NCBI RefSeq assembly: GCF_005930495.1
Contig: NZ_SJEX01000043.1
Span: 1 to 42,249 of the forward strand
Direction: 5' to 3'
Length of the DNA: 42,249 nucleotides
Origin: Modestobacter excelsi
Lineage (GTDB): Bacteria; Actinomycetota; Actinomycetes; Mycobacteriales; Geodermatophilaceae
Numbering within the stretch: position 1 is the first letter of the stretch; each line of letters begins with the position of its first letter. A program made the position numbers and the translations under genes. The notes under the pieces are model-generated. The model did not search any database and was not told the origin of the DNA. It saw nothing but the letters and a program-made list of their open reading frames with translations. Of the stretch, positions 6,986 to 21,250 are shown in pieces.

Positions 6986-9931
6986 GTGCCTGACCCCGCC
7001 GAGCTGCGCCGCCGGGTGCTGGCCGCCTGGACCGACTCCCCGGCCCGCTTCCGGGAGGACGCGAACGCCGAGGAGGACCTGGTCCTCGGCGGCTACCGCG
7101 ACCGGCTGCTCGTCGAGCTCGCGCAGAACGCCGCGGACGCGGCCGCCCGGGCCGGCGTCCCCGGTTCGCTGCGGCTGCACCTGGACGGCGAGGTCCTCCG
7201 CGCGGCCAACACCGGCGCCCCGCTGGACGACGAGGGCGTCCAGGCGCTGGCCAGCCTGCGGGCCAGCGCGAAGCGGGACGCCGCCGCCGTCGGCCGGTTC
7301 GGCGTCGGGTTCTCCGCCGTCCTGGCCGTCAGCGACGAGCCGGCCGTCGTCTCCACCGACCGCTCGGTCCGGTTCAGCGCCGAGCGGACCCGGGCCGCCG
7401 TCGCCGCCGTGCCCGCCCTCGCCGAGGAGGTGGCCCGCCGGGGCGGCGCCGTCCCGGTCCTCCGGCTGCCGTTCGCCGCCGACGGCGCCCCGCCGGACGG
7501 GTTCGCCACCGAGGTCGTCCTGCCGCTGCGGCCCGGCACGGCCGGTCAGGTCCGCACCGCGCTGGCCGGCCTGGACGCCGAGCTGCTGCTCGCCCTCCCG
7601 GCGCTCAGCCGCATCGACGTCGTCCTCGACGGCTCGGTCCGCACCCTCCGTTCACTTTCGGCGCGGAAAGCGGAGGTGGTGCTCACCGATGGGGACCGGA
7701 CGACGACCTGGCGGGTCGTCCAGCGCTCCGGCGAGCTGCCCGAGGAGCTGTTCGCCGACCGGCCGGTGGAGGAGCGCGACCGCCGCGGCTACACCGTCAC
7801 CTGGGCCGTCCCGGTCCAGGACGGGGTCCCGGTCCCGCTGGCCGGCCGGCAGGTGGTGCACGCCCCGACACCCAGCGACGAGCCGCTCTCGCTGCCCGCC
7901 CGGCTGATCGCGCCGTTCCCGCTCGGCCCCGACCGGCGGCACGTCGCGCCCGGCCCGGTCACCGACGCGCTGGTGCAGGTGGCCGCCGACGGCTGTGCCG
8001 AACTCCTCGCGGAGCTGCCGGCCGACCCGGTCCTGCTCCGGCTCGTGCCCCGCACCGGCCTCGCCGCCGCCGAGCTGGACGCCGTGCTGTGCCGCGCCGT
8101 CCTCGGTCGGCTCCGCGACTCCCCCTGGCTGCCGCCCGCCGACCCGGAGGAGGCCCCGCTCCTCCCGGACCGCGCGGTCGCCCTCGACGACCCGACCGAC
8201 GACCGGGTCGCCGCGCTCGTCGGGGTGCTGCCCGGCCTGCTGCCGGCTGCGTGGTCTCGGCGGTCGGACGCGGCGGTGCTCAGCGCGCTCGGCGTCCGCC
8301 GCGCCGGGCTGGCCGAGGTCGTAGAGGCGGTCCGGGGCGTGCAGCGGCCCGGCTCCTGGTGGGCCGGGCTCTACGCCGCCCTGGAGACCGCCGACCGGGA
8401 CGAGCTCGCGGCCCTCCCGGTGCCGCTGGCCGACGGCCGGACGGCGCAGAGCCCGGCCGGTGTGCTGCTCACCGACGACTCGCTGCCCGCCGACCGGCTC
8501 GCCCCGCTCGGCCTGCGCATCGCCGACCCGGCGGCGGCGGCCGGGCCGGCGCACCGGGTGCTGGAGCGGCTCGGCGCACGCCCGGCGACCGCGGCCGCCG
8601 TGCTCGCCGATCCCGACGTGCGGGCCGCGGTGGAGGCCTCGCTGGACGAGGCCGACGACGGCGCGGACGTCGAGCCGCTGGCCCTCGCCGTGCTCACCCT
8701 GGTCGCCGCCGCCGGGACGGCGCCCGGTGAGCTGCCGTGGCTGGCCGAGCTGGCGCTGCCCGACGACGACGGCGGCTGGGCGCCGGCGGGGGAGCTGGTG
8801 CGCCCCGGCTCCCCGCTCTCCGACGTCCTCGCGCCTGCCGCGCTCGGCGCGCTGGACCCCGAGTTCGCCGTCGGTCAGGACGTCGCCGCGCTGCGGGCCG
8901 TCGGGGTGCTCGACACCTTCGCGCTGGCCACCGCCGAGGACCCCGACGACCTCGACGTCGACCGCGTCGAGGAGTGGGTGGACGCCGTCCTGGACCGGCT
9001 GCCCGCCGACGCCCCGCCGCCGGTCTGGCCACCGCTGACCGCGGTGCGCGACCTGGAACTGGTCCGCGACTGGGACCGGGCGCTGCCGCTGCTGGCCGGG
9101 CTGCCGGCCGCCGCGCGGGCCGACGTCGACCTCGGCGGCACCGTGGTCCCCGGCTACCTGCGCTGGTGGCTGCGCACGTCACCGGTGCTGCACGGCACCC
9201 GGCCCGACCGGCTGCGCTCCCCGGACAGCGCGGAGCTGCGGGGGCTGTACGAACCGGTGCCGGAGCTGCCGGCCGAGGTCCTGGCGCTGCTGCGGCCGCC
9301 GGCGACGGTGGCCGACGTGCTGGCCGACGTCGACGACGCCCTCGACCTGCTCGACCGGCTGGGCGACCCCGCGCGGACGGTCGGCCCGGCCGTGCTGCGC
9401 ACCGTCTACGCCGACCTGGCCGCCGCGCTGGCCGACGTGGACGTCGAGCCCCCACGCCGGGTCCGGGTCGCGCCCGACCGGGTCAGCGACGAGGCGGTGG
9501 TCCTGGACGCGCCCTGGTTGCAGCCGCTGGTCCCCGCCGCCGTCGTCCCGGTGGGCGGGGCGCCCGGCCCGGTCGCCGACCTGCTCGACCTGCCGCTGGC
9601 CGGCGAGCAGGCCGGCCGCGCCCGGGTGACCAGCCGAGCCGCGCGCACCGTGCGGTGGGCCGAGGTGCCCGGGGCCGGGCTCGCCGCGGCGCGGCTCGGC
9701 GTGCCGGAGCTGACCGGGTCGGTCGCCGTCCACCCGACGCTCACCGTGACCGGCGGCCGGACCGTCTCCTGGTGGCCCGGTGAACCGGACGCGGTGGACG
9801 GCTCGCCCGCGGCGCTGGGCCGGGCGCTGGCCTGGCGGTCCGGGGTGTGGCCGCTGCGGCAGGCGCTCGCCGAGGCGTTCGCCCACCCGCAGCGGGCAGC
9901 CGAGCTGGCCGCCGAGGACGCCGTCGGCTGA
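6986..9931 (+). CDS. large sacsin/Hsp90-type (GHKL) ATP-binding protein
   Basis: A 981-residue cytosolic protein. The N-terminus holds a GHKL ATPase of the sacsin/Hsp90 type: the N-box ELAQNAADA (Glu44 and Asn48), NTGAPLD (75-81, the ADP-binding Asp/Gly loop) and the glycine-rich lid GRFGVGFSAVL (103-113). The remaining 800 or so residues are very rich in Ala, Leu, Asp and Pro and show no second recognisable domain. Bacterial proteins of this layout are usually annotated only as sacsin N-terminal ATP-binding-like proteins, with no established client or pathway. The GTG at 6986 is used because the protein then starts shortly before the ATPase fold; a CATGCT element 8 nt upstream would suit a leaderless start. 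It stands alone between the phosphatase and the esterase. Confidence 0.85.
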   Translation: MPDPAELRRRVLAAWTDSPARFREDANAEEDLVLGGYRDRLLVELAQNAADAAARAGVPGSLRLHLDGEVLRAANTGAPLDDEGVQALASLRASAKRDAAAVGRFGVGFSAVLAVSDEPAVVSTDRSVRFSAERTRAAVAAVPALAEEVARRGGAVPVLRLPFAADGAPPDGFATEVVLPLRPGTAGQVRTALAGLDAELLLALPALSRIDVVLDGSVRTLRSLSARKAEVVLTDGDRTTTWRVVQRSGELPEELFADRPVEERDRRGYTVTWAVPVQDGVPVPLAGRQVVHAPTPSDEPLSLPARLIAPFPLGPDRRHVAPGPVTDALVQVAADGCAELLAELPADPVLLRLVPRTGLAAAELDAVLCRAVLGRLRDSPWLPPADPEEAPLLPDRAVALDDPTDDRVAALVGVLPGLLPAAWSRRSDAAVLSALGVRRAGLAEVVEAVRGVQRPGSWWAGLYAALETADRDELAALPVPLADGRTAQSPAGVLLTDDSLPADRLAPLGLRIADPAAAAGPAHRVLERLGARPATAAAVLADPDVRAAVEASLDEADDGADVEPLALAVLTLVAAAGTAPGELPWLAELALPDDDGGWAPAGELVRPGSPLSDVLAPAALGALDPEFAVGQDVAALRAVGVLDTFALATAEDPDDLDVDRVEEWVDAVLDRLPADAPPPVWPPLTAVRDLELVRDWDRALPLLAGLPAAARADVDLGGTVVPGYLRWWLRTSPVLHGTRPDRLRSPDSAELRGLYEPVPELPAEVLALLRPPATVADVLADVDDALDLLDRLGDPARTVGPAVLRTVYADLAAALADVDVEPPRRVRVAPDRVSDEAVVLDAPWLQPLVPAAVVPVGGAPGPVADLLDLPLAGEQAGRARVTSRAARTVRWAEVPGAGLAAARLGVPELTGSVAVHPTLTVTGGRTVSWWPGEPDAVDGSPAALGRALAWRSGVWPLRQALAEAFAHPQRAAELAAEDAVG

Positions 9932-14628: not shown

Positions 14629-14697
14629 GCAGTTCGGGCCTGCTGCAGGGGCCCGGCACGAGCCTGCGAGTGACGGGGGGCAGCAGGGTCCTTCATC
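14624..14697. repeat. palindromic intergenic element, copy 2
   Basis: The ends GATGA/TCATC pair, and CCTGCTGC on the left pairs with GCAGCAGG on the right around a loop of about 50 bases. On the minus strand it starts CTGATGAAGGACCC and contains CGCAGGCTC, matching copy 1 at 11750-11812 (CTGACGAAGGACCC, CGCAAGCTC). It fills the whole gap between converging genes, and the stop codons of both lie in its ends. Probably a dispersed repeat serving as a two-way terminator. Confidence 0.5.
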
Positions 14698-15559
14698 AGG
14701 TCGAGGGGTCTCGGTCGGGGAAACGCGCCCGGGCCAGGGCGTAGACCCCGAACGCGGCGAAGCCGACCGCGACCGCGGTGAGCAGCCACTGCCCGGTCGG
14801 GACGCCGGCGATCGCGTGCATCGCGCCGTCCAGCCCGGTCGCCGTCGACACGTCCTCCGTCGCCGCGGCGTAGACCAGCAGGCCGCCGGAGACGGCGAAC
14901 GCGACGCCCTTGGCCACGTAGCCCACCGAGCCGATCCGCTCGATGAGCGGCTCCCACCGGTCCGGAGCGGCGGCCAGGTCGACGTCCTTCATGAACCCGC
15001 CGGTCAGCCCGCGCACCAGCGTGTACGTGCCGACCGCGGCCACCACGACGCCGACGCCGACCACGGCGACCGCGCCGCCGGGGATCTCCAGGGCGTCGTC
15101 GGTCAGCTCCCGGAACCGGTCGGCGGCGTCGTAGTCGGCACCGACGGCGAAGAAGAGCGCGGTGACCCCGAGGACGGCGTAGACCGCGCCCTTCGCGGTG
15201 CACTTGGCGCAGACGACGGCCGTGCGCAGCCGCCGGGCCGGGCGGAGCAGGCCGGCCCACACGCGCAGCACCTCCCCGGCCTGCCACAGCGCCAGCGCCA
15301 GCATGCCCAGCCCGATCACCCAGAGGAGCACCCGGCCGCCGGGGGAACCGGAGACCGTCTGCAGCGCACCGGTCTGGTCGGCGTCCTCGGCGCGCGGACC
15401 GACGGCCCAGGCCACCCGGAAGGCGAGCCAGCCGATCAGGACGTGCAGGACGCCGTAGGCCACCAGCCCCACCCGGGCCAGGTGGGTCAGCACCGGGTGG
15501 TCGGTCACCTCGCGGGCGCGGGCGACGGCGTCGTGCACCCGTTGCAGGACGGCGGTCAC
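14696..15559 (-). CDS. DUF1206 family membrane protein
   Basis: A 287-residue integral membrane protein with about six transmembrane helices in three two-helix units, the internal repeat expected for DUF1206. Repeat signatures are LARVGLVAYGVLHVLIGW, CTAKGAVYAVLGVTALF and IGSVGYVAKGVAFAVSG, each followed by a GLDGA-like or DQTGAL-like loop. The function of the family is unknown. The start used is the GTG at 15559; the N-terminal amphipathic segment then precedes the first helix by about 20 residues. The gene follows a paralogue on the same strand by 40 nt, so the two are probably co-transcribed after a tandem duplication. Confidence 0.88.
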   Translation of the reverse strand: MTAVLQRVHDAVARAREVTDHPVLTHLARVGLVAYGVLHVLIGWLAFRVAWAVGPRAEDADQTGALQTVSGSPGGRVLLWVIGLGMLALALWQAGEVLRVWAGLLRPARRLRTAVVCAKCTAKGAVYAVLGVTALFFAVGADYDAADRFRELTDDALEIPGGAVAVVGVGVVVAAVGTYTLVRGLTGGFMKDVDLAAAPDRWEPLIERIGSVGYVAKGVAFAVSGGLLVYAAATEDVSTATGLDGAMHAIAGVPTGQWLLTAVAVGFAAFGVYALARARFPDRDPST

Positions 15560-15599
15560 CCCGCGATCGTGCCCGAGCCCGGGCGCGCCCGCTCGGCGG

Positions 15600-16436
15600 T
15601 CACGTGCGCTCGGGGTAGCGGGCCCGGAAGAGGCAGAAGACGCCGAACGCCGCGATGCCGAGCGCGACCACGGTGAGCAGTGCCTTGCCGAAGGGGGCGT
15701 CCAGCAGCGTGCGCATGGCGCCGTCCAGGCCGCTGGCCTTCGCCGGGTCGAAGGTGATCGCCGCCCAGCCGATCAGCCCGCCGACCAGGGCGAGCGCGAC
15801 CCCCTTCGCCGGGTACCCGACCAGGCCGAGCCGCTCGATCACCTGCCGCTGCCCGGCGGTGGCCTGCGCGGTGTCGATCTCCTTCATGAAGTGCTTCGTG
15901 ACGCCCTTGCGCACGTGGTAGACGCCCACGCCGATGACCACCAGCGCGGCGACGCCGACCAGGAACCGGCCGGCCGGCCAGCTGAACACCCCGGCGACGG
16001 CCGACTGCTGCTGCTGCCCGCTCGACTGCCCGCCGCCGGTGGCGAACCTGATCGCGGTGACGGCGAGGAAGACGTAGACGACCGCCTTCGCGACCGACTT
16101 GACGATCTTCCCGGTGGCCTTCTTCTTCGCGTCGCCGGAGCCGCGCAGCCGCGGGGTCCAGCGCAGCACCTCGGCGAGCTGCCACAGGGCCAGGGCGATG
16201 AGCCCGACGGCCAGCACCCACAGCAGCCCCTTGCCGAACGGCTTGGAGGCCAGCGTGGCCATGGCCCCGGACTGGTCGGCGGTGCCGCCGCCCCCGCCCC
16301 AGGCCAGCTGCAGGGCCAGCCAGGCCACCAGCAGGTGGACGATGCCCAGGGCGATCAGCCCGACGCGGGCCAGGTTCTCCAGCGCGTCGCTGTTGCCCGC
16401 CCGGTCGGCGCTGGACGAGATGCCCGGTCTGGTCAC
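15600..16436 (-). CDS. DUF1206 family membrane protein (paralogue)
   Basis: A 278-residue membrane protein homologous along its length to the next gene downstream. The three repeat units begin LARVGLIALGIVHLLVAW, VAKAVVYVFLAVTAI and LGLVGYPAKGVALALVGG, with a KASGLDGAMRTLLDAPFGK loop near the end. The start is GTG at 16436 (VTRPGISSS), supported by AAGGGA six nt upstream; a GTG 51 bases further upstream is in frame but lacks that site. A low-complexity SSGQQQQS loop after the fourth helix region sets it apart from the paralogue. Function unknown. Confidence 0.88.
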   Translation of the reverse strand: MTRPGISSSADRAGNSDALENLARVGLIALGIVHLLVAWLALQLAWGGGGGTADQSGAMATLASKPFGKGLLWVLAVGLIALALWQLAEVLRWTPRLRGSGDAKKKATGKIVKSVAKAVVYVFLAVTAIRFATGGGQSSGQQQQSAVAGVFSWPAGRFLVGVAALVVIGVGVYHVRKGVTKHFMKEIDTAQATAGQRQVIERLGLVGYPAKGVALALVGGLIGWAAITFDPAKASGLDGAMRTLLDAPFGKALLTVVALGIAAFGVFCLFRARYPERT

Positions 16437-16694
16437 GGTGGGTCCCTTCGGTCGCGGGAGCGGACGGCGCCCGGATCCGGTGCTCACGTTCCCGTGGCCG
16501 CTCAGATTGGCACAACCGCAGGTCGGATGCGCGCCGGACAGGCGCGGCGTCAGCCGACCGGGTGCCGGGCGCGGGCGGAGCAGTGGACGCCGGACGACCC
16601 GGTGCCCCGAACCGGTCCGGGCCCGCGGCCGGGGTTCCTCGCGGGCGGACGGTGCGCCTGGGTGGTGCGGTCCCCGGTGGGGGAGACTGGGGGC

Positions 16695-17473: not shown

Positions 17474-17575
17474 ATGCGCACCATCGAACGCACGGTGTGG
17501 ACCTGCGACAACTGCAGGCACGCCAACGCCGCTGACCGCAAGCGGTGCACCGACTGCGGCACCACCCGGCACTGA
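17474..17575 (+). CDS. 33-residue RanBP2-type zinc finger microprotein
   Basis: This tiny gene encodes one zinc finger and little else. The core, WTCDNCRHANAADRKRC followed by TDCG, fits the RanBP2-type consensus W-x-C-x2-C-x3-N-x6-C-x2-C exactly (Trp9, Cys11, Cys14, Asn18, Cys25, Cys28). In eukaryotes such fingers bind single-stranded RNA or ubiquitin; in bacteria their role is mostly unknown. The start is strongly supported by GGAGGAGG about 8 nt before the ATG at 17474. The codons are high-GC like the neighbours, and the stop is followed by a non-coding stretch containing tandem repeats. It sits between the Cys-tailed membrane protein and the catalase-like/macro-SIR2 genes on the same strand. 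Confidence 0.75.
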   Translation: MRTIERTVWTCDNCRHANAADRKRCTDCGTTRH

Positions 17576-17695: not shown

Positions 17696-18382
17696 ATGGC
17701 AGACCTCGTGGACGCCGCCGGCCGGCTGGTCGCCGTCCCCATCGCCGCGCTGACCCGGGTCCGCGGCGCCAAGCCGATGCACCCCCGGGGGACCCTGTTC
17801 ACCGCGGTGCTGCAGCGGACCGGGCTGGCCGGCGGCATCCCCTGGCTGGACGCCACCGGCCGCGACGACGTCCTGGTCCGGATCTCCCGCGGCGCCGGGC
17901 TGCCCCCTGCGCTGCCCGACCTGCTCGGCTTCGCGCTCCGGGTGCCGGGTGAGCGCCCGGTCGACCTGCTGCTCTCCTCGACCGGCCGCGGGCGGTGGAC
18001 CCGGCGGGTGCCGGTGCTGCGCCGCGACGCGGCGACCGGCTACGGCTCGATCATGGCCTACCGCAGCGCCGCCGGGCCGGTGTGGCTGGCCGCCGATCCC
18101 ACCGGCGGCCCGCTGCCCACCGCCCGCGACCGGCTGGCCGCGGCCGCGCCCGGCCGGGTCGTCGTCCTGTCCGCGGCCGTCGGCCGGGGCCCGTGGGCGC
18201 GCTTCGGCACCGTGACGCTGGGGGAGCCGAGCACGCCGCCGGACCCGGAGCAGCCCTTCGACGCGGTCCAGCACCCGCCACCGGGGCTGGTCGCCGACGG
18301 CCCGCTCGCCCGGTTCCGCCGCCCCGCGTACGCCGCGGCCCGCGCCGCCCGTGGCGTCGCGCTGGAGACCGGCCCGCGGTGA
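17696..18382 (+). CDS. catalase-like (heme-domain-like) family protein
   Basis: A 228-residue protein that resembles the short actinobacterial proteins of the catalase-like superfamily, sometimes labelled phosphodiesterase in databases without evidence. Matching features are the early KPMHPRGTLFTAVLQ block, DVLVRISRGAGLPPALPDLL, the DLLLSSTGRGR stretch, YGSIMAYRS and a C-terminal FRRPAYAAARAARG. It is far shorter than true catalases (about 480 residues or more), so peroxide dismutation should not be assumed; a partial heme pocket or a purely structural fold is possible. Its TGA overlaps the GTG of the macro-SIR2 gene by four bases, so the two are translationally coupled. No clear Shine-Dalgarno precedes the ATG. 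Confidence 0.8.
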   Translation: MADLVDAAGRLVAVPIAALTRVRGAKPMHPRGTLFTAVLQRTGLAGGIPWLDATGRDDVLVRISRGAGLPPALPDLLGFALRVPGERPVDLLLSSTGRGRWTRRVPVLRRDAATGYGSIMAYRSAAGPVWLAADPTGGPLPTARDRLAAAAPGRVVVLSAAVGRGPWARFGTVTLGEPSTPPDPEQPFDAVQHPPPGLVADGPLARFRRPAYAAARAARGVALETGPR

Positions 18383-19938
18383 GCGGTCACGTCTTCGTCG
18401 TCGGCGCGGACCTGACCCGGCTGTCCTGCGACGACGTCGTCGTCCCCACCGACCGGTCCCGGCGGGTGACCGCGAGCTGGGTGCCGCTGCTGCCCGCGGA
18501 CGCCGTCGCGGCGCAGGACGAGGACGGGGCGTGCGTGACCGGCACCTGGTACGGCGCGGAACGGGTGCACGAGGTGCCCGGTTGCGGCGACCGGCGCGCC
18601 TGGCTGGTCGACACCGTGGACCCCGATGGCTCCCGGGACGGCGAGCGGGGGCTCAGCTGGCTGCTCGACGGCGCCCGCGAGGTGCTGGCCGCGGTCGCCC
18701 GGCGTGAGGTCCCGGCACCGGCGCACGGGCGGGCCCGCCGCCTGGTCGGGCTCCCGGCGCTGGGCACCGGCTGGGGTGGCGCCGCCGGGCAGCGGGGGGC
18801 CCTGCTCCAGCAGCTGCTGCCGGTGCTCCGCCAGGCCGCCGCCGAGCACGGCTACGACATCGCGCTGGTGCTCCGCCGGCCCAGCGACCTGGCCGCCGCC
18901 CAGCGGGTCCGGCGCGGTGACGGCGGCGGCTGGCGGCTGCCCGAGGCGCTGGCCGCGCTCGCGGAGGACCTGGGCCGGCGGGCCCGCGAGGGGGAGCTGG
19001 CCGTCTTCCTCGGGGCCGGCGTCAGCGCCGCGGCCGGCCTGCCCACCTGGGAGCAGCTGCTCGCGGAGCTCGCCGTCCGCGCCGGCCTGGACGAGGGGTC
19101 GCGCGCCGGGCTGTCCGGCCTCCCGCCGCAGGACGCCGCCGCCCTGCTCGCCCGGGTGCTCGGCCGCGACGAGCTGACCGCCTACGTGCAGGAGCGCTTC
19201 GGCCCGGGCTCGTACTCGCTGGCGCACGCGCTGGTCGCCGCGCTGCCGGTGCGCGAGTTCGTGACCACCAACTACGACCCGCTGGTGGAGCTGGCCGCCG
19301 CCGACATCGGCCGGCCGATGCGGGTGCTGCCCTTCGAGGAGGCCGCGCCGGGCGCGCCCTGGCTGCTCAAGCTGCACGGCGACGCCGCCCACCCGGACAG
19401 CGTCGTGCTGACCCGCGAGCAGTACCTGGAGTTCGGTGACCACCGCAGCGCCCTGGCCGGGGTCCTGCAGTCGCTGCTGCTCACCCGGCACGTCCTCTTC
19501 GTCGGCACCTCGATGCTGGACGACGACCTGATCCGGATCGCCCACCAGGTGCGCACCGTGCTGCACGTGCCCGACCCCGCGGAGCGGCGGCGCAGCGGCA
19601 CCGTGCTGGCACTGCAGGAGGACCCGGTGCGCGCCCGGCTGTGGGAGCGGGACGTCGAGACGGTGGCGATGACCGGTGCGGCGGGGGCCGCTGACGCCTC
19701 CCCGGCCGAGGCGGCCCGCCGGCTCGAGGTGCTGCTGGACCTGCTCGGCTGCCTGTCCAGCCGGCCGACCGGCTACCTGCTGGACCCGGCCTACCGCGGG
19801 CTGCTCGACGAGGAGGAGGCCGCGCTGGCCGACGCCCTGGCCGACGCCGGGGCGGCGCTCGGCGGCGGGGCGGGGCAGAGCTGGGCGGGCCAGGAGGTGC
19901 TCCGGCTGCTGCGCGAGCTGGGTCAGGGCGACGGCTGA
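18379..19938 (+). CDS. macro-like and SIR2-like two-domain protein
   Basis: A 519-residue protein. Residues about 4-180 read as a divergent macro domain: GADLTRLSCDDVVVPTD (first strand and helix, VVPTD in place of the usual VNAAN), AWLVDTVDP, then LVGLPALGTGWGG (the phosphate-binding loop) and DIALVLRRPSDLAAAQRV. Residues about 195-470 form a SIR2-like domain of the NADase type: FLGAGVSAAAGLPTW (nucleotide loop, 210-224), TTNYD with Asn298, KLHGD with His333 (the pair needed for NAD cleavage in ThsA-type SIR2 proteins), and FVGTSMLDDDL. No zinc-binding cysteines typical of protein deacetylases are seen. Macro folds usually bind ADP-ribose and this SIR2 class cleaves NAD in defence systems, so one chain may make or sense ADP-ribose. 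The defence role is inference. Confidence 0.88.
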   Translation: MSGHVFVVGADLTRLSCDDVVVPTDRSRRVTASWVPLLPADAVAAQDEDGACVTGTWYGAERVHEVPGCGDRRAWLVDTVDPDGSRDGERGLSWLLDGAREVLAAVARREVPAPAHGRARRLVGLPALGTGWGGAAGQRGALLQQLLPVLRQAAAEHGYDIALVLRRPSDLAAAQRVRRGDGGGWRLPEALAALAEDLGRRAREGELAVFLGAGVSAAAGLPTWEQLLAELAVRAGLDEGSRAGLSGLPPQDAAALLARVLGRDELTAYVQERFGPGSYSLAHALVAALPVREFVTTNYDPLVELAAADIGRPMRVLPFEEAAPGAPWLLKLHGDAAHPDSVVLTREQYLEFGDHRSALAGVLQSLLLTRHVLFVGTSMLDDDLIRIAHQVRTVLHVPDPAERRRSGTVLALQEDPVRARLWERDVETVAMTGAAGAADASPAEAARRLEVLLDLLGCLSSRPTGYLLDPAYRGLLDEEEAALADALADAGAALGGGAGQSWAGQEVLRLLRELGQGDG

Positions 19939-19975: not shown

Positions 19976-21250
19976 ATGCGCCGGCCCCGGTTCGACCAGT
20001 CCCTGCCCATGCTCGCCAAGGGCTACGCCTGGCTGCCCGACCGGCGGCGCACCGCGGGGCGGGACACCGTGCAGACCCGGCTGCTGGGGGTGCGCCGGAT
20101 GCTGGGGGTCGAGGGCCCGGCCGGTGCGCGGTTCCCCTACGACGAGGACCACGTCCGGCGCAGCGGCGCCCTGCCCGAGCCGGTGGTCAGCACCCTGTTC
20201 GGCCACGGCGCGGTGCACACGCTGGACGGCGAGCCGCACCGGGTGCGCAAGGCGATGTTCGTCCACCTGCTGATGGACGACGGGACCGCCGACCTCGTGG
20301 ACCGGGTCGGCGCGGCCTGGGACGACGCCGTGCCGCGCTGGGCCGCCCAGCCGCAGGTGGTGCTCATGGACGAGGCGGCCCGGGTGCTCACCCGGGGCGT
20401 GTGCGACTGGGCCGGCGTCCCGGTGTCCGACGAGGAGCTGCCGGCCCTCGCCGGTGACCTGACCACCCTCGTCGACGGCTTCGCCACCGGCGCCCCGCGG
20501 CACTGGCGGGCCCGGCGGGTGCGGCAGCGGCGGGAGGCCTGGCTGGCCGGCATCGTCGACGCGGTGCGCGCCGGCGAGCGGACCCCGCCGGCCGGCTCCG
20601 TCCTCGACGTCGTCGCCACCCACCGCGACTCCGAGGGCGAGCTGCTCGAGCCGCGGGTGGCCGCCGTCGAGGTGCTCAACGTCATCCGGCCCACCGTCGC
20701 GGTCAGCTGGTTCCTCGGCTTCGCCGCGCACGCGCTGCACCGCTGGCCGACCGGCCGGGAACGGCTGCGGACCGGAGGCGCCTACGCCACCGCGTTCGCG
20801 CACGAGGTGCGCCGCTACTACCCGTTCGCGCCGTTCATCGGTGGCCGCGCCCCCCGGGAGGTGGAGTGGGACGGCGAGCGGGTGCCGGCCGGCTCGATGG
20901 TGCTGCTGGACCTGTTCGGTCAGGCCCACGACCCGGAGCTGTTCCCCGAGCCCTACGCCTTCCGTCCCGAGCGGTTCCTGACCGAGGACGGCGACCGGGT
21001 CCGCGACATCGGTCCGTGGGAGCTGGTGCCGCAGGGCGCCGGCGACCCGCGCACCGGGCACCGCTGCCCGGGGGAGGACGTCACGGTGGCGCTGCTGGCC
21101 TCGCTGGCCGTCCGGCTGGCCCGCCTGGGGTACCGGCTGCCCGACCAGGACCTGACCATCTCGCTGCGCCGGATCCCGGCCCGGCCGGCCAGCGGGGTGG
21201 TGCTCAGCGACGTGCGGCCGGGTGACCGGCAGGGCCACGCAGGCTGGTGA
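19976..21250 (+). CDS. CYP152-family cytochrome P450 (fatty acid peroxygenase/decarboxylase type)
   Basis: A 424-residue soluble P450 of the CYP152 peroxygenase family (P450 BSbeta, SPalpha, OleT), which uses hydrogen peroxide to hydroxylate or decarboxylate fatty acids without a redox partner. Signatures: NVIRPTVAVSW with the carboxylate-binding Arg238-Pro239, EVRRYYPF with ExxR (277-280), LDLFGQAHDPELF, FRPERF and the heme loop PQGAGDPRTGHRCPG with Cys364. The pocket reads LFGHGAVHTLDG, placing Phe75 and His81 where OleT has Phe79 and His85, rather than the Gln85 of the hydroxylating BSbeta. Terminal alkene formation is therefore possible. The gene begins 37 bases after the macro-SIR2 stop, so it is probably in the same transcript. 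Confidence 0.93.
   Translation: MRRPRFDQSLPMLAKGYAWLPDRRRTAGRDTVQTRLLGVRRMLGVEGPAGARFPYDEDHVRRSGALPEPVVSTLFGHGAVHTLDGEPHRVRKAMFVHLLMDDGTADLVDRVGAAWDDAVPRWAAQPQVVLMDEAARVLTRGVCDWAGVPVSDEELPALAGDLTTLVDGFATGAPRHWRARRVRQRREAWLAGIVDAVRAGERTPPAGSVLDVVATHRDSEGELLEPRVAAVEVLNVIRPTVAVSWFLGFAAHALHRWPTGRERLRTGGAYATAFAHEVRRYYPFAPFIGGRAPREVEWDGERVPAGSMVLLDLFGQAHDPELFPEPYAFRPERFLTEDGDRVRDIGPWELVPQGAGDPRTGHRCPGEDVTVALLASLAVRLARLGYRLPDQDLTISLRRIPARPASGVVLSDVRPGDRQGHAGW

Follow-up and report, generated by a model that had tools for sequence, protein, structure and literature searches.

Macro-SIR2 fusion in the window

A macro domain and a SIR2 domain are joined in one 519-residue chain in the DNA analysed here, which comes from a soil actinobacterium, and this fusion is a real, recurrent architecture and a new variant of SIR2 NADase effector. 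The explanation that we favour, with moderate confidence, is that a SIR2 enzyme like ThsA, DSR2 and KomC cleaves NAD+ here under the control of a macro domain at its N-terminus, which would be the ligand sensor. Distant kin often lie in predicted ADP-ribose conflict systems centred on an ADP-ribosylglycohydrolase (ARG), and the window's own lineage has a stand-alone clade. This explanation is supported by the predicted folds, the invariant NADase residues, the ARG linkage of distant members and the patchy presence at a fixed site. From these we infer NAD cleavage, ligand binding, gating of the enzyme and a role in defence, so the fusion may be an NAD-cutting defence protein.

The window is the whole stretch of 42,249 nucleotides, contig C117 of a 5.26-Mb genome, and its nearest loci are from Modestobacter and other Geodermatophilaceae. 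The fusion belongs to a clade (the window clade) of which 47 named loci were surveyed, 46 of them labelled Geodermatophilaceae or its genera and one a Frankiales MAG; its genome has a single copy, on C117. Both reading frames and their GTGA overlap (18379-18382) sit at the positions given by the sequence-only reading from which this work started. The features are as follows.

14696..16487, minus strand: two DUF1206 genes, upstream edge of the conserved locus
17696..18382, plus strand: catalase-like protein, 228 aa, with distant catalase resemblance, upstream of the fusion
18379..19938, plus strand: macro-SIR2 fusion, 519 aa, with macro fold (1-185), SIR2 fold (about 186-464) and short helical C-terminal end (465-519)
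18379..18933, plus strand: macro-domain part, residues 1-185, predicted model matching YmdB and the O. iheyensis macrodomain, macroH2A1.1 profile E 2.2e-8
18934..19770, plus strand: SIR2 part, residues about 186-464, Asn298/His333 equivalent to ThsA Asn112/His152
19976..21250, plus strand: cytochrome P450-like protein, PF00067 E 1.2e-13, downstream of the fusion

Domain folds and conserved residues

The macro and SIR2 domains that had been read from motifs in the 519-aa protein are borne out by the predicted structure and by profile matches: residues 1-185 take a macro fold, and the SIR2 part takes a fold of the ThsA/DSR2 type. Pfam did not list a macro domain in any of 33 fusion members, so the macro assignment rests on the predicted structure and one profile. 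The glycine loop of the macro part is GTGWGG (residues 129-134), in which Gly129 and Gly131 are invariant in alignments of 33 and 13 sequences. Hydrolytic macro domains have a usual hydrolase loop for reference. This loop was not apparent in the fusion while the glycine loop is kept, which fits ligand binding over hydrolysis. Residue D11, which we take to be the adenine-binding Asp of the macro domain, is not kept in all distant members (exceptions in L118 and L114), a point against the explanation that we favour.

The best relatives of the SIR2 part are the phage-defence NADases ThsA, KomC and DSR2. Asn298 and His333 align with ThsA Asn112 and His152 and are invariant in 33/33 and 13/13 aligned sequences. 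Mutation of N112/H152 abolished NAD cleavage by ThsA, and H152A also disturbed the oligomer (PMC7272460, in part). Weaker SIR2 profile matches included human FAM118B and, with a wider profile, sirtuin-7 (E 0.00025), so SIR2 resemblance alone leaves the function unfixed. Compared with four relatives, the fusion showed dN/dS of 0.27-0.33, meaning purifying selection.

A self-contained enzyme that modifies and removes would use the same two domains differently: SIR2 would ADP-ribosylate a target or the protein itself, and the macro domain would read or remove the mark, as in SirTM-macro systems. In those systems the two domains are encoded by separate genes, and the sirtuin is of another class than that of the fusion. 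Such an enzyme is rather unlikely here. Two points speak for it: the 33 and 13 aligned sequences all retain the fusion, and known two-gene systems pair a macro gene with a sirtuin gene (PMC9503650, in part), so that they resemble the fusion in having the same two domain types side by side. PMC9503650 uses 'macro-sirtuin' for these coupled two-gene systems. Against it, the SIR2 part best matches SIR2_2 of Pfam and NADase structures, Pfam listed no family of classical sirtuins among the 33 members, and no macro catalytic loop can be recognised.

The fusion also varies among loci. In alignment A1 (L024-L059) there is a nearly fixed C-terminal tail, D/N-D-R-x-Q-x-x-R-x-G, after a variable linker. 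The tail is present in 24 of 25 window-clade rows outside the window's genus (exception L034) and in none of the five from the genus group, which are the window, L021, L022, L023 and L025. Its role may be that of a tag for docking or turnover. At L023 (7953-8000) and L067 (from 7911) the fusion N-terminus is extended by short VVGGH-type repeats with the GTGA overlap retained. The L021 fusion has a 14-residue repeat insertion after window residue 395, behind the SIR2 helices, which the window copy does not have, and the fusion match of G007 is split similarly to L021. In the Blastococcus loci L064 and L066, and in G894 and G976, the fusion gene is apparently broken or split, by decay or assembly errors.

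Comparison with known SIR2 and macro effectors

The fusion is like ThsA of Thoeris in its SIR2 domain with catalytic Asn and His. However, ThsA carries a C-terminal SLOG domain after SIR2, whereas the fusion has an N-terminal macro domain and only about 55 residues after SIR2, which ends near residue 464 of 519 against near 284 of 473 in BcThsA. The fusion has no room for SLOG and no adjacent TIR protein ThsB, and membership in Thoeris was rejected. The two reported types of ThsA effector are SIR2-SLOG and TM-macro (PMC11204291, in part). The fusion resembles the TM-macro type in that the macro domain is the ligand-binding part of the effector, but the effector of that type is a transmembrane segment and that of the fusion is a SIR2 enzyme (PMC11204291, in part). 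Macro-SIR2 is the combination missing beside these two types in the part of that paper covered, and it predicts an NADase gated by ADP-ribose or a derivative.

The NCBIfam Dsr2 model gave the fusion 12.5 bits against a cut-off of 1400. DSR2 chains have about 1000 residues with a long C-terminal sensor after SIR2, and the fusion at 519 aa does not fit this description. We know of no macro domain in KomC or DSR2. No paper naming a macro-SIR2 fusion was retrieved by a full-text literature search, which had most subscription journals outside its reach and leaves priority unsettled.

Distant relatives and ARG neighbourhoods

Full-length fusions beyond the window clade are about 33-48% identical and are distributed in several phyla. 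L068 (Acidobacteria), L069 (Myxococcota) and L070 were found in an initial scan, and overlapping searches of 396, 394 and 397 genomes (phylum, class and order) added further fusions. All full-length matches outside the window clade make 29 distant loci, 26 from the genome searches together with L068, L069 and L070.

Pfam domains around the fusions of L118, L112, L113, L114, L140 and L143 included ADP_ribosyl_GH joined to a phosphatase domain, along with ARPP-1, NUDIX, HD, NERD, REase-ARP, TY-Chap and VWA; none of these was detected by Pfam in the neighbours at L070 and L068. Neighbours of these kinds make the distant fusions similar to the ARG-centric systems of PMC9503650 (in part), from which the window copy differs by having no ARG and accessory neighbours. 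ARG-centric conflict systems were predicted by a search that targeted ARG enzymes with no ART or sirtuin coupled to them in the genome (PMC9503650, in part).

Probes made from neighbour genes matched ARG at 13, Nudix at 13, NERD at 10 and ARPP-1 at 9 of the 29 distant loci. All 13 ARG loci have Nudix, 10 also NERD and 9 also ARPP-1. Each of the four was found at 0/26 SIR2-only controls and 0/47 window-clade loci. As 16 of the 29 distant loci gave no ARG match, the link is frequent but not general. In clade B, seven members from the window's family, ARG genes adjoin the fusion in 7/7 loci. In the FastTree phylogeny the ARG-linked members are on several branches (L145; L139; L113; L112; L138 and L140; clade B), and the window clade stands apart; supports were read for clades A and B, and both are 1.0.

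The controls are loci from the three genome searches that match the SIR2 part only, 19 tested first and 7 added later, and not random loci. One further match, in G900, covers only profile positions 118-201 and lies near genes for ARG (69% to the probe) and Nudix. It is cut off by the contig, which makes it a cut-off relative and not a SIR2-only protein. Counted conservatively as a control, it gives ARG at 13/29 against 1/27 loci (Fisher p 0.0004). Against the first 19 controls, 13/29 gives p 0.0005, or p 0.011 with the seven-member clade B counted once. The ARG probes were taken from L112 and L118, both among the 29 loci; without these two, ARG is at 11/27 (p 0.0012 against the first 19 controls). 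The 13 ARG-positive loci include 7 from one clade of the window's family and a match in L163 that is a 59-residue piece. Flanks are short at L068, L069 and L070 and at the controls L152, L174, L178 and L214.

Two minor observations belong to these loci. The G900 relative (L218, 1731-3798 and to the contig end) lies beside ARG and Nudix on a contig of 5.2 kb. Large proteins of 1660 and 1674 aa are beside the fusion in L070 (3612-8594, no Pfam family) and L143 (11018-16042, with a HerA-type ATPase domain).

Proposed function in ARG-centric loci

By analogy with ThsA, in which cADPR isomers act via SLOG, binding of an ADP-ribose-type ligand to the macro domain would release the SIR2 NADase, and sensor and effector would be combined in one chain. 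In ARG-centric loci, ADP-ribose species freed during attack might switch on NAD+ depletion; in clade B and the other linked loci, the ligand could be the product of the glycohydrolase. The window clade, separate and stand-alone at a fixed locus, would most likely retain this biochemistry.

More tentatively, macro-SIR2 could form a class not described before, sensor and NADase effector in a single chain, that recurs in actinobacterial ARG-centric systems, in which the macro domain reads ADP-ribose freed as the glycohydrolase strips modified host molecules, and SIR2 then depletes NAD+. We hold this wider reading as possible though somewhat doubtful. If it is true, ARG-centric systems, which were sought as sirtuin-free clusters, would gain a suicide arm, and the window clade would represent a variant now independent of them. 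The recurrent ARG, ARPP-1 and Nudix neighbours would point to a testable effector for systems so far predicted only to undo viral ADP-ribosylation.

ARG and TIR genes in the window's genome

The link to ADP-ribose biology suggested earlier for this protein gains from the neighbourhoods of distant relatives, and not from the window copy, which has no such neighbours. By tblastn, probes for ARG, ARPP-1, Nudix, NERD, HD, metallophosphatase, TY-Chap and VWA had no match in the window, and the sole probe match was HATPase at 7094-7354. No TIR was found on the window contig; TIR_2 matches were only on contigs C32, C107 and C92, and ThsB_TIR had none in the genome. The missing ARG, ARPP-1, Nudix, NERD or TIR neighbours of the window copy, together with the 47 window-clade loci and the 16 distant loci without ARG, weigh against the sensor-controlled NADase that we prefer.

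A separate ARG-centric cluster (HD, ARG, ARPP-1, Nudix, NERD) is present in the window's genome on contig C124 (L160), at about 6.3-18.3 kb. Its proteins are identical to those of the clade B cluster L118 at 74% (NERD), 71% (ARG), 69% (HD), 52% (ARPP-1) and 47% (Nudix). No macro-SIR2 gene was found at this cluster. With the cluster on C124 and the single fusion on C117, the two may act in trans. Away from the fusion locus, ARPP-1 occurred in 5/12 fusion-bearing and 0/8 fusion-lacking genomes; with p 0.055 and related genomes, this co-occurrence carries no weight.

Conserved chromosomal spot of the window clade

The DUF1206 match is present in 44 of the 47 window-clade loci, the remaining three being too short, and the P450-like match in 43 of the 47, about 2-3 kb off in L054 and L055. 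In all nine genomes of the genus that lack the fusion and are at least 90% complete, DUF1206 and P450-like genes share a contig and are separated by 1.2 to 2.1 kb (at the fusion-less site of G003 the P450 match is partial). The fusion has thus long resided at one spot, lost or gained patchily. A partnership with the P450-like gene was rejected: all nine of these genomes keep its match at the site, so this gene can do without the fusion.

Carriage by phages or plasmids was also rejected: 36 pattern stretches in viral contigs gave no confirmed relative of the fusion, and of 216 matching plasmid records none covered 80% of the query, the 20 listed covering the SIR2 part only. Apparent vertical inheritance at one locus without viral or plasmid carriage is atypical for a mobile defence gene.

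The same data bear on a house-keeping or stress regulator of NAD/ADP-ribose in Geodermatophilaceae with no defence role, whose partner would be pointed to by the P450-like neighbour or by the C-terminal tail. The conserved synteny, the purifying selection and the absence of mobile context among the loci seen agree with such a regulator. We still consider it improbable, because several close relatives have the flanking genes but no fusion between them, and because clade B of the same family is beside ARG genes at every locus.

Catalase-like neighbour

The gene upstream of the fusion had been called catalase-like and joined with it into one unit. A distant resemblance to catalase is suggested, and the two-gene unit is not supported. 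No Pfam or NCBIfam family matched this protein, and the quality of its predicted structure is low (pLDDT 53.9), but catalases (E about 1e-3) or chanoclavine synthase make up its nine best PDB matches, and a profile of 18 relatives matched 3e4w (E 6.8e-6) and a catalase (E 0.04).

The catalase-like gene was matched in 25 of 59 genomes searched, including the window's own. It adjoins the fusion in 5/47 window-clade loci (L021, L022, L023, L025 and L067), the upstream flanks of L041, L060 and L061 being too short to judge. The 4-base stop/start overlap is found in the window, L021, L022, L023 and L067 and is absent from L025. A fusion match is present in 10 of the genus's 22 other genomes (partial in G011 and G022), and the two genes are adjacent in 8 of the 10; G022 has them on separate contigs, and G011 (70% complete) gave no match to the catalase-like gene. 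In other genera, the three genomes carrying both genes (G023, G026 and G033) all have them on different contigs. The gene is present without a fusion match in G013, G016, G019 and G021 of the genus. In G013, G016 and G021 the P450-like gene comes directly after it, the fusion being absent, and in G019 (70% complete) it adjoins a hydrolase gene.

A macro-SIR2 and catalase-like two-gene unit in redox stress or defence, as was first proposed, is therefore very improbable. The overlap and the adjacency within the genus are in its favour, but the survey showed no general pairing among the 47 loci, each gene occurs without the other, and the two were on separate contigs in all three genomes of other genera with both; on these neighbourhoods the unit was rejected. 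The two genes pair up in one genus (for L021 the label gives the family only), and the catalase-like gene probably lies outside the fusion's system as an incidental neighbour.

A 33-aa zinc-ribbon-like mini-protein, scoring below Pfam cut-offs, is encoded at 17474-17575 of the window. Of the 5 window-clade loci with the catalase-like gene, 4 have the mini-protein beside it, and in many other window-clade loci the mini-protein is located kilobases downstream of the fusion.
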